In this document: piece after piece, positions 6,697-52,329 of the stretch | Layout of the letters: every line of letters begins with the position of its first letter | Position numbering within the stretch: position 1 is the stretch's first letter | NCBI GenBank assembly: GCA_003388505.1 | Contig: QQVO01000015.1 | Coordinates: forward strand, 186,001-250,000 | From: Planctomycetota bacterium | GTDB taxonomy: Bacteria > Planctomycetota > Planctomycetia > Planctomycetales > Planctomycetaceae | Direction of reading: 5' to 3' | Length of the DNA stretch: 64,000 bases | Translations under genes and position numbers: made by a program | The notes under the pieces: generated by a model | The model's input: the letters and a program-made list of their open reading frames with translations, nothing else | Told to the model about the DNA's origin: nothing | Database searches by the model: none

Positions 6697-6699
6697 TCG

Positions 6700-6734
6700 A
6701 AAACGGACGCACCGCCATCCGGTGCGTCCGTTTT
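6700..6734 (+). terminator. Intrinsic terminator of tRNA-Glu
   Basis: Perfect 15-bp inverted repeat (AAAACGGACGCACCG / CGGTGCGTCCGTTTT) with a 5-nt loop ccatc. The 3' arm ends in a T run, starting 3 bases after the tRNA. Confidence 0.9.
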
Positions 6735-6823
6735 CTCATTGCTCAACCCTCAAACGGCGAGCGGCCGGCGTCAGCCGGCCGATGCGTCCGATCGTCCATG
6801 GTCCTGAGTTTCCGCCGCGGCCC

Positions 6824-50224: not shown

Positions 50225-51064
50225 ATGAACACAAAAATCTCACCTCTCGCCTGCGTCGATCCCCGTGCTGAAATCGGCGAACGGGTCGAAATCGGCCCGT
50301 TCTGTCTCGTCGGCCCCGAAGTGGTGCTGGGAGACGACTGTATTCTCGACAGCCACGTCACGTTGACCGCCAGAACGCAAATCGGAAACGGAAACCGATT
50401 CTGGCCGAACTGCGTCATCGGGGCGGAGCCTCAGGACAAATCGTACGCAGGCTCCAACACGCGCATCGAGATCGGCAACGGCAACCAGTTCCGCGAAGGC
50501 GTGACCGTCAACCGTGGCGCGGACAAGGAAGACGGCTGCACGCGCATCGGCGATCGCAACCTGCTGATGTCCAACGCCCACGTCGCGCACAACTGTCACG
50601 TCTACGACGACACAATCCTCGTCAATGGAGTTCTGCTGGGCGGGCACGTTCACGTCCAGGACCGGGCGATCATCTCCGGGAATTCCGTCGTCCACCACTT
50701 CTCGACGATCGGGACGCTGGCGTTCGTCAGCGGGGGGTGCCGCGTCCCGAATGACGTGCCGCCCTACATGCTGTGGGCCGGCAGCGATGATCCCAGCGTT
50801 CGCACGATCAACCTTGTCGGATTGCAGCGCTCGGGGATGTCCCGGGAGGCGATCGGCCGCGTGAAACTCATCTATCGCATGCTGTACCGCGAGCACAAAT
50901 CGCTCGAAACCGTTGTGGAGCAGATTCAGGGTGAATTCGGAGCGGACTATCCGCCGGAGGTGAGGACGCTGGTTGAATTCCTCGAGGCGCAAAAACGTGG
51001 TCGCATGGGCCGGGCGCGAGAGCCGAGACGAGACGTTGCGAAGCCCCAGGCCAAAGCGGCGTGA
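50225..51064 (+). CDS. lpxA: Acyl-ACP--UDP-N-acetylglucosamine O-acyltransferase
   Basis: 279 residues. A left-handed beta-helix of hexapeptide repeats (VEIGPFCLVGPEVVLGDD; THE catalytic His is H122 in SNAHVAHNCHV). The expected residues follow: GGHVHVQDRAIISGNSVVHHF, VPPYMLWAGSD and LVGLQRSGMS. The C-terminal helical domain ends in a basic tail. LpxA transfers a 3-hydroxyacyl group to UDP-GlcNAc, the first step of lipid A synthesis. The last codons are part of a 30-bp direct repeat that recurs at 51199. The next gene, a Gfo/Idh enzyme, may act on UDP-GlcNAc. Confidence 0.95.
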   Translation: MNTKISPLACVDPRAEIGERVEIGPFCLVGPEVVLGDDCILDSHVTLTARTQIGNGNRFWPNCVIGAEPQDKSYAGSNTRIEIGNGNQFREGVTVNRGADKEDGCTRIGDRNLLMSNAHVAHNCHVYDDTILVNGVLLGGHVHVQDRAIISGNSVVHHFSTIGTLAFVSGGCRVPNDVPPYMLWAGSDDPSVRTINLVGLQRSGMSREAIGRVKLIYRMLYREHKSLETVVEQIQGEFGADYPPEVRTLVEFLEAQKRGRMGRAREPRRDVAKPQAKAA

Positions 51065-51228
51065 CCCAGGACCGTAGCTGAAATCACAATTCCTCGTTCC
51101 CGAACTTCTGTTCGGGAACGCACCGTGGTGATACCGACTCTGTGCCCAAACAGATGTTTGGGCATAAGGTTTGACAGAAGCTTGGGCACCAGGTCTGAGC
51201 GGCGTGACTCAAGACCGGAGCTGAACTC
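51056..51228. repeat. Direct 30-bp repeat flanking two hairpins
   Basis: Copies 51056-51085 (GCGGCGTGACCCAGGACCGT...) and 51199-51228 (GCGGCGTGACTCAAGACCGG...) match at 26 of 30 bases. Between them lie two perfect hairpins: CGTTCCCGAAC/GTTCGGGAACG (51095-51120) and TGCCCAAAC/GTTTGGGCA (51143-51164). The first copy includes the lpxA stop. Confidence 0.75.
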
Positions 51229-51231
51229 GAA

Positions 51232-52329
51232 ATGCATGAGTGGGACGCAGAAGCGATGCAATGCTTGAAAATGGCTGTCATCGGCGTGGGCGCTCTGGGC
51301 CGTCACCACGCACGGATTCTCTCGCAAATCGAGAACATTGACCTCGTCGCCGTCGCCGACCCGAACGAGCAACAGGGGCGCAGCGTCGCCGAGACCAGCG
51401 GTTGTGAGTGGACGGCCGACTATCGTGAACTGATCGGCCGCGTCGACGCAGCCAGCATCGTGGTGCCGACGTTCCTGCATCGCCCCGTCGCCGCCGAGTT
51501 TCTGCAAGCCGGCGTCCCGGTGCTGATCGAAAAGCCGCTCGCCGGGAACGTTCCTGACGGTGAAGCCCTGGTCGAGCTGGCGGCGGAAAAATCGGTTGCG
51601 CTTCAGGTGGGGCACGTCGAACGATTCAACCCGACGTTTCAGAAGCTGCAAGCGGTCACCGGCGCGGCAAAATACATCCGCGCGGAACGGCTGAGCCCTT
51701 ATGCGTTTCGCTCGATGGACATCGGAGCGGTCCACGACCTGATGATCCACGACATCGATCTTGTTCTGGCGCTCGCTCGTTCGCCCGTCGACCGCGTTGA
51801 GGCTTTCGGAGCCAGCATCGTCGGCGGCTGTGAGGACGCGGTCCAGGCCCGGCTGGTGTTTGAAAACGGCTGCATCGCCGACCTGACGGCCAACCGCGTC
51901 TGTCCGCAACCACGCCGCACACTTCAAGTCTGGTCCGACACGGGGTGTATCGACGCCGACTTGCACCAGCGAAAGATTACGGAGTTTCGTCCCGGCGCCG
52001 CGCTGCTGGCCGGCGAACTCCCCTACGACCTGGCCATGCAGCCCGGCGCCGAGATCGCCTCGCTCAAGCAGCAGATCTTTGAGCGGTTCATAACCATCAC
52101 GGAGACGGACGCCGCCGCGGACGACGCCCTGACCGCGGAACTGGCCAGCTTTGCCGCCTCGGTGCGGCACGGAACCACTCCGGCGGTGGACGGCGCCCAG
52201 GCCCTCGCCGCACTGCGGATTGCCGGCAGAGTTGTCGAATCGGTTCAGAACCATCGCTGGGACGGCGCGGCCGACGGTCGGATCGGACCGCACGCCCACG
52301 CGATCCACACCAAGCGGCGGGCGGCCTGA
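51232..52329 (+). CDS. Gfo/Idh/MocA oxidoreductase next to lpxA
   Basis: 365 residues; the start at 51232 is tentative, as M9 (51256) or M14 (51271) fit the conserved start KMAVIGVGALGRHHARIL better. The Rossmann motif is VIGVGALGRHH, then VAVADPN, IVVPTFLHRPVA and the EKP motif VLIEKPLAGN. HVERFNPTF and DLMIHDIDLVLAL follow. The pattern matches the clade related to UDP-GlcNAc 3-dehydrogenases such as GnnA, which supply 3-amino sugars for lipid A. Directly following lpxA supports that role. No aminotransferase (GnnB) is adjacent, so the product is uncertain. Confidence 0.85.
   Translation: MHEWDAEAMQCLKMAVIGVGALGRHHARILSQIENIDLVAVADPNEQQGRSVAETSGCEWTADYRELIGRVDAASIVVPTFLHRPVAAEFLQAGVPVLIEKPLAGNVPDGEALVELAAEKSVALQVGHVERFNPTFQKLQAVTGAAKYIRAERLSPYAFRSMDIGAVHDLMIHDIDLVLALARSPVDRVEAFGASIVGGCEDAVQARLVFENGCIADLTANRVCPQPRRTLQVWSDTGCIDADLHQRKITEFRPGAALLAGELPYDLAMQPGAEIASLKQQIFERFITITETDAAADDALTAELASFAASVRHGTTPAVDGAQALAALRIAGRVVESVQNHRWDGAADGRIGPHAHAIHTKRRAA

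Follow-up and report, generated by a model that had tools for sequence, protein, structure and literature searches.

A hairpin pair downstream of lpxA in a planctomycete genome is probably a copy of a dispersed REPIN

Introduction

In a 64,000-nucleotide stretch of DNA from a Planctomycetota bacterium (contig QQVO01000015.1, positions 186,001 to 250,000; hereafter the window), two perfect hairpins occupy the space between the lipid A gene lpxA and a dehydrogenase gene, and the final codons of lpxA reappear on the far side of the hairpins. What kind of structure is this, and how did the end of lpxA come to be copied next to it? An initial annotation, made from the letters of the window, offered two answers: a small element that had duplicated its surroundings, or a structured regulatory RNA. 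We weigh these and other explanations against copies of the hairpins in the same genome, the corresponding site in relatives, and the transposase genes that similar hairpins accompany elsewhere in the phylum.

Results

Anatomy of the lpxA-dehydrogenase spacer

The features of the site are collected in Table 1. The direct repeat is as the initial annotation described it, with 26 of 30 positions matching between 51056-51085 and 51199-51228 at a spacing of 143 bp; the match amounts to 29 of 35 over 51056-51090 and 51199-51233, and a repeat finder lengthens it to 48 nt at 79% identity. The two enclosed hairpins are perfect, the left with an 11-bp stem (51095-51105 paired with 51110-51120) and the right with a 9-bp stem, each closed by a 4-nt loop. 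Two further features had been missed in the first reading. The left and right hairpins are related to one another in inverted orientation (75% over 28 nt), and positions 51174-51193 hold half of a second right hairpin, within a 24-nt tandem repeat shared with 51150-51173 (19/24).

Table 1. Coordinates of features at the lpxA-dehydrogenase site, as positions in the window
Feature	Position	Strand	Basis
lpxA (acyl-ACP--UDP-N-acetylglucosamine O-acyltransferase)	50225..51064	+	ORF; NCBIfam NF003657 and TIGR01852 above cut-off
F, left flank direct repeat, including the final lpxA codons and stop	51056..51090	+	Repeat comparison
Left REP hairpin (CCTCGTTCCCGAACTTCTGTTCGGGAACG; stem 51095-51120)	51092..51120	+	Repeat finding, copy alignment, folding
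Spacer between hairpins, variable	51121..51139	+	Alignment of 19 copies
Right REP hairpin, inverted relative of the left (stem within 51143-51164)	51140..51169	+	Repeats, alignment, fold
Half of a second right REP hairpin	51174..51193	+	18/20 to family half-consensus
F', right flank direct repeat	51199..51233	+	29/35 to F
Gfo/Idh/MocA-type dehydrogenase	51256..52329	+	Start codon common to relatives; ORF also permits 51232

The flank pair has a score of 46, compared with a maximum of 30 among 20,000 shuffles, and this score is reached by 0.12% of 5,800 pairs of left and right flanks taken from different copies of the element described below. Perfect hairpins of at least 9 bp with loops of 2-6 nt number only four in the 64-kb window, and two of them are at the lpxA site. 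As DNA, the hairpin pair folds with a z-score of -7.8; the RNA fold of 51056-51233 is stable as well (z -3.9), as expected from the two hairpins. At 6699-6735 the window also contains a perfect 16-bp stem with a 5-nt loop and TTTTC at its end, perhaps a terminator. The dehydrogenase scores below the cut-off for UDP-N-acetylglucosamine 3-dehydrogenase (NF040723; 200 of 450 bits), and a role in the modification of lipid A sugars is only a thought.

The hairpin pair belongs to a dispersed family

The assembly that contains the window comprises 6.78 Mb in 78 contigs, with a completeness of 98.76. When positions 51043-51233 were compared with it, 39 matches were found, all of which except the self match fall within positions 40-132 of the query; thus the hairpin pair is repeated elsewhere, while flank F, at that sensitivity, is not. 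A covariance model built from 19 copies, with matches kept at E<=0.001 on both strands, yielded 108 matches that collapse to 66 distinct places, a lower bound because 150 of 1865 candidates were scored. At least 66 places thus match an element of about 79 nt made of two inverted hairpins, with 32 doublets, 18 places that have only the left hairpin and 16 that have only the right. The family consensus in the 19-copy alignment is CCTCGTTCCCAAACTTCnGTTTGGGAACGC, a variable spacer, and TCTGTGCCCAAACAGAAGTTTGGGCACAAGG, and the foot of the element reads CCTC or CCTT.

This is the anatomy of a REPIN, in which two inverted REP hairpins enclose a short variable spacer (here in 32 of 66 places) and many dispersed copies are accompanied by singlet remnants (34 single hairpins among the at least 66 places). 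The REP super-families are matched less closely: the foot is not the GTAG (or GTGG) of one, and it fits the CGTC super-family (feet CGTC, TGTC or CCTC) in its CCTC form, but the consensus stem of 11 bp is longer than the 8-9 bp of that group. Two copies (L015 and L027) have similar left flanks (GTGTCACTG.CAGCCTTGGAAG...), apparently another dispersed repeat adjoining the REPIN.

Flank duplications accompany few copies

Long flanking direct repeats occur at 3 of the 66 places, namely the site in the window, C9:102300 (28/29) and C40:26074 (17/18). The repeats are 18-36 nt long; their left copies stop 1-6 nt short of the left hairpin, and their right copies start 8-29 nt past the right hairpin. 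The C40 repeat also appears to contain the 3' end of an open frame on the opposite strand, like the lpxA end in the window. The lowest flank score of the three is reached at 9 of 2716 control positions in the same genome and at 2 of 1588 in the window, one of which is the site itself (control positions overlap and are not independent). These features speak for a target-site duplication, in which the element and some adjoining bases would have entered a break with a stagger of 18-36 nt and left the lpxA end on both sides. However, 63 of the 66 copies, near-consensus ones included, have no such repeat; the stretch that separates the right hairpin from the right flank copy is unrelated among the three; and the C9 case is doubtful because an inverted version of a similar motif is present close by. 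With the right edge as anchor, the 66 copies show no excess of short target duplications. With the left edge as anchor, 3 of 66 attain the threshold (null 0.73%), these being C9, C40 and a marginal C10:73979; the window is missing from this set because its last matching bases are interrupted. We know of no such target duplication for IS200/IS605-type enzymes, and we consider this origin of the repeat unlikely. The proposal of the initial annotation that the element duplicated its surroundings is a possible account of the site, but one weakened by the 63 copies without a repeat and by the location of one of the others in a locally repeated motif.

A tandem cluster offers a simpler account of the repeat. 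In the portions of PMC3116915 on which we draw, including the legend of figure S7, ordered REPIN clusters consist of tandem units of flank plus REPIN with a short unrepeated stretch between them, and excision of REPINs is observed. The order seen in the window, with F, the REPIN, a short stretch and then F', would suit such a cluster from which the second REPIN is missing. That the second REPIN expected after F' is absent nevertheless counts against this reading.

The site lacks the element in relatives

An LpxA-like match is present in all 61 family genomes searched (own included), and we examined 32 relative loci from genera other than that of the window, 29 among the matches listed and three on named contigs; 30 of them are distinct, because two contigs are each represented twice (L041/L044 and L042/L061). 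The end of lpxA falls at a similar position in the relative loci compared, and the dehydrogenase follows the gene in all but one of the 32; the exception is L052, on a short contig, where no dehydrogenase was found. Neither hairpin occurs in any of the 32 loci (30 distinct), all of them from other genera. The spacer from stop codon to conserved start is 69 nt in the nearest relative (LpxA 75.9% identical) versus 191 nt in the window, and in at least 10 relatives the two genes overlap by 4 nt. Subtraction of one 143-nt period from the window spacer leaves 48 nt. Other inverted repeats are found in the spacers of L043, L046 and L054, and those of L054 (after 2361) and L043 (after 781) are unrelated.

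These comparisons bear on both answers of the initial annotation, which had named as evidence against an element an arrangement conserved in all relatives and a lack of further copies of the hairpins. The genome search and the relative loci revealed the opposite, and a small element is supported by its dispersal at no fewer than 66 places together with its absence from the site in 32 of 32 relative loci.

The regulatory RNA is not supported. A structured RNA between lpxA and the dehydrogenase could control transcript stability, termination or translation; the folds of both DNA and RNA are stable and the gene pair is co-directional, and according to the sections of PMC6006769 used here, REPs in other settings reportedly influence the stability of mRNA and its termination. 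Yet the structure is not conserved at the site, the same sequence is found at 65 other places, an Rfam scan of 50900-51400 gave no match up to E 5, and a scan of the site for promoters and terminators returned none of either. Although 91.6% of pair cells are paired and 8.4% broken, 86 of 500 shuffles reach as high a value, and the covariation score, reached by 29 of 500 shuffles, is not clearly above them. Such pairing and covariation suit the spread and decay of copies better than they suit an RNA kept by selection, and we regard a regulatory RNA at this site as very improbable.

Related hairpins accompany a clade of RAYT transposases

The left hairpin reaches beyond the genome that contains the window. 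A blastn search with the whole element found matches in 7 of 101 family genomes (own included), and 19 of the 20 matches outside the own genome fall within query positions 1-43, which correspond to the left hairpin and its edge. In seven genomes the covariance model (R1, both strands) gave 108 matches in the own genome, 13 in G036, 82 in G015, 5 in G063 and 16 in G065, with no matches in G047 and G039. A left-hairpin pattern is present in 10 of 294 genomes of the phylum and its reversed form in none. In copies from G036 and G015 (L141, L143 and L145, at about 1520-1590), the GTTCCC hairpin is partnered by a hairpin of the GCGAAGC..GCTTCGC type, not by GTGCCC; species may thus differ in what forms the second end of the doublet.

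REPINs are expected to have the same hairpin beside a RAYT gene. In the own genome (78 contigs) this was not seen: ten matches to PF01797 (Y1_Tnp) are present, and family hairpins were found in none of these ten loci of about 3.3 kb each, while the same patterns detected hairpins in 20 of 20 loci of known copies. The link to a transposase thus comes only from relatives, where the arrangement does occur. A PF01797 search of seven hairpin-carrying genomes returned weak matches situated between hairpins in G036, G015 and G069, which correspond to RAYT candidates of about 180-190 residues. All three proteins of this clade that were tested pass the NCBIfam model REP_Tyr_transpos (90.1-107.8 bits versus a cut-off of 80), and TnpArep 4er8 is the solved structure with the best sequence match (E 0.0016).

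Among 294 genomes of the phylum and 11 chosen genomes, the clade is represented by 17 loci at E<=1e-40, a cut-off that, like the hairpin criterion that follows, was set after the first loci had been seen. A perfect GTTCC..GGAAC hairpin (at least 9 bp, within 350 nt) adjoins 16 of the 17, on both sides in 10, and the exception, L183, is on a short contig; the same hairpin is found at 0 of 40 other Y1-transposase loci among the matches listed. The stricter family pattern occurs at 9 of 17 clade loci versus 0 of those 40, a smaller share because the stems vary between species, and it adjoins 1 of 7 weaker clade matches (E 1e-40 to 1e-20). By genome, a RAYT at E<=1e-20 is present in 12 of 294, and 7 have both this gene and the left-hairpin pattern; the Fisher value of 2.6e-9 for this co-occurrence ignores kinship, and 6 of the 7 are members of a single family (f44). 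The pattern is missing from five RAYT genomes, and it is seen without a RAYT at E<=1e-20 in G239, G253 and the own genome (G000). One genome (G184 C1:1410312-1411732; L189 and L195) has a tandem pair of clade RAYT genes separated by 905 bp, and a family-type hairpin follows each of them.

The best match of a clade RAYT in the own genome is only 28% identical (C6:158775) and has no family hairpin around it; three of the four weak RAYT matches there were checked for hairpins, C1:10828 being left out. Since a close homologue of the clade RAYT was not seen in the own genome, the REPIN copies there look orphaned, unless the gene is hidden by a gap in the assembly. The possible situations are loss of the enzyme, a gene that falls in such a gap, and a distant RAYT that serves the copies. 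Another ORF of the Y1 transposase type, different from these, in the own genome (L181:2371-3174, G000 C46:19871-20674) has the same DNA stretch on both sides, which reads in frame ...IHHSFNP.SIPASR, and may be an element with long terminal repeats.

That the 78-nt unit is instead a MITE of a DDE-type insertion sequence, as its inverted ends (CCTCG...CAAGG) and its length near 79 nt in the alignment might suggest, is scarcely credible given that each end forms a complete hairpin by itself, only one of the two hairpins is present at 34 of 66 places, short target duplications are not in excess at the right edge, and the hairpins accompany Y1-type RAYT genes in relatives.

Discussion

The hairpin pair downstream of lpxA is a known kind of element and not a new regulatory RNA. 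We are confident, short of certainty, that 51092-51169 is a REPIN copy that entered the spacer between lpxA and the dehydrogenase, and that the flanking repeat is a local duplication, most simply the remains of a tandem cluster. A REPIN is a non-autonomous element of two inverted REP hairpins that would be bound as single-stranded DNA by a RAYT, which would move or copy it. In the lineage of the window, such an element would have entered the spacer, and the direct repeat would represent a local duplication of the 3' end of lpxA plus spacer, left from a cluster of flank and REPIN units whose second REPIN was lost or never copied. The cluster is our suggested cause of the flank duplication. It also seems likely, judging from the hairpins beside this RAYT clade in other planctomycetes, that a RAYT of the clade mobilized the copies in the own genome. 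The element probably has no dedicated role at lpxA, and some effect on the transcript is possible.

A broader scenario would join these observations. Planctomycetes may have a REP class of their own, with a GTTCCC hairpin on a CTCG or CTTG foot and a corresponding clade of RAYTs. In this class the REPIN ends would have become unlike hairpins through divergence, and some insertions would duplicate 18-36 bp of the target, so that the 3' end of the adjacent gene is copied. The genome of the window would have kept the repeats and lost the enzyme. This scenario invokes a break-and-fill step not known for RAYTs, and in its entirety we consider it improbable.

Under the REPIN reading, the puzzling hairpins next to a lipid A gene are explained as a mobile repeat and not as a new RNA. 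More broadly, this reading connects a class of hairpins that lack the GTAG foot with one particular clade of RAYTs in Planctomycetota, a pair suited to in vitro testing, and it offers a natural example of REPINs whose transposase is apparently missing. Two features are mildly interesting: the enzyme seems to be absent, and the end of lpxA has been copied.

Among known systems, the REPINs and RAYTs treated in the relevant passages of PMC3116915 and PMC8049555 share with the present family two inverted REPs, a variable spacer, solo remnants and many copies per genome, as well as a hairpin beside the RAYT (here in relatives) and tandem clusters that include flank. They differ in having a GTAG foot where we find CCTC or CCTT; here, moreover, the two hairpins are unlike, with a GTTCCC stem and a GTGCCC stem, and no cognate RAYT was found in the own genome. 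By motifs alone (NHLH, WQ or WE, and YIxxNP or YMHNNP), the clade comes near the entries for TnpAREP 2.4 and 2.6 in the table of PMC6006769. In that table, group 2.6 is listed for Bacteroidetes, unlike here, and group 2.4, listed for Cyanobacteria, Bacteroidetes and other phyla, has GT[AG]G feet, also unlike here. In the searched literature on RAYTs, REPINs and planctomycete palindromic repeats, as far as the consulted portions extend, we found no description of the GTTCCCAA / TTGGGAAC hairpin family. Planctomycetes are named as a group with REPs in PMC3733652, which in the part used here gives no planctomycete sequence. The CGTC-tagged REPs presented in that part of the paper resemble the family in their 4-nt loops, their inverted dimers and the reported change of the CGTC foot to CCTC in many of them. 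In contrast to those REPs, which have 8-9 bp stems with A-T first pairs and no transposase, the hairpins described here have an 11-bp consensus stem that begins with C-G, and their class accompanies a clade of RAYTs.
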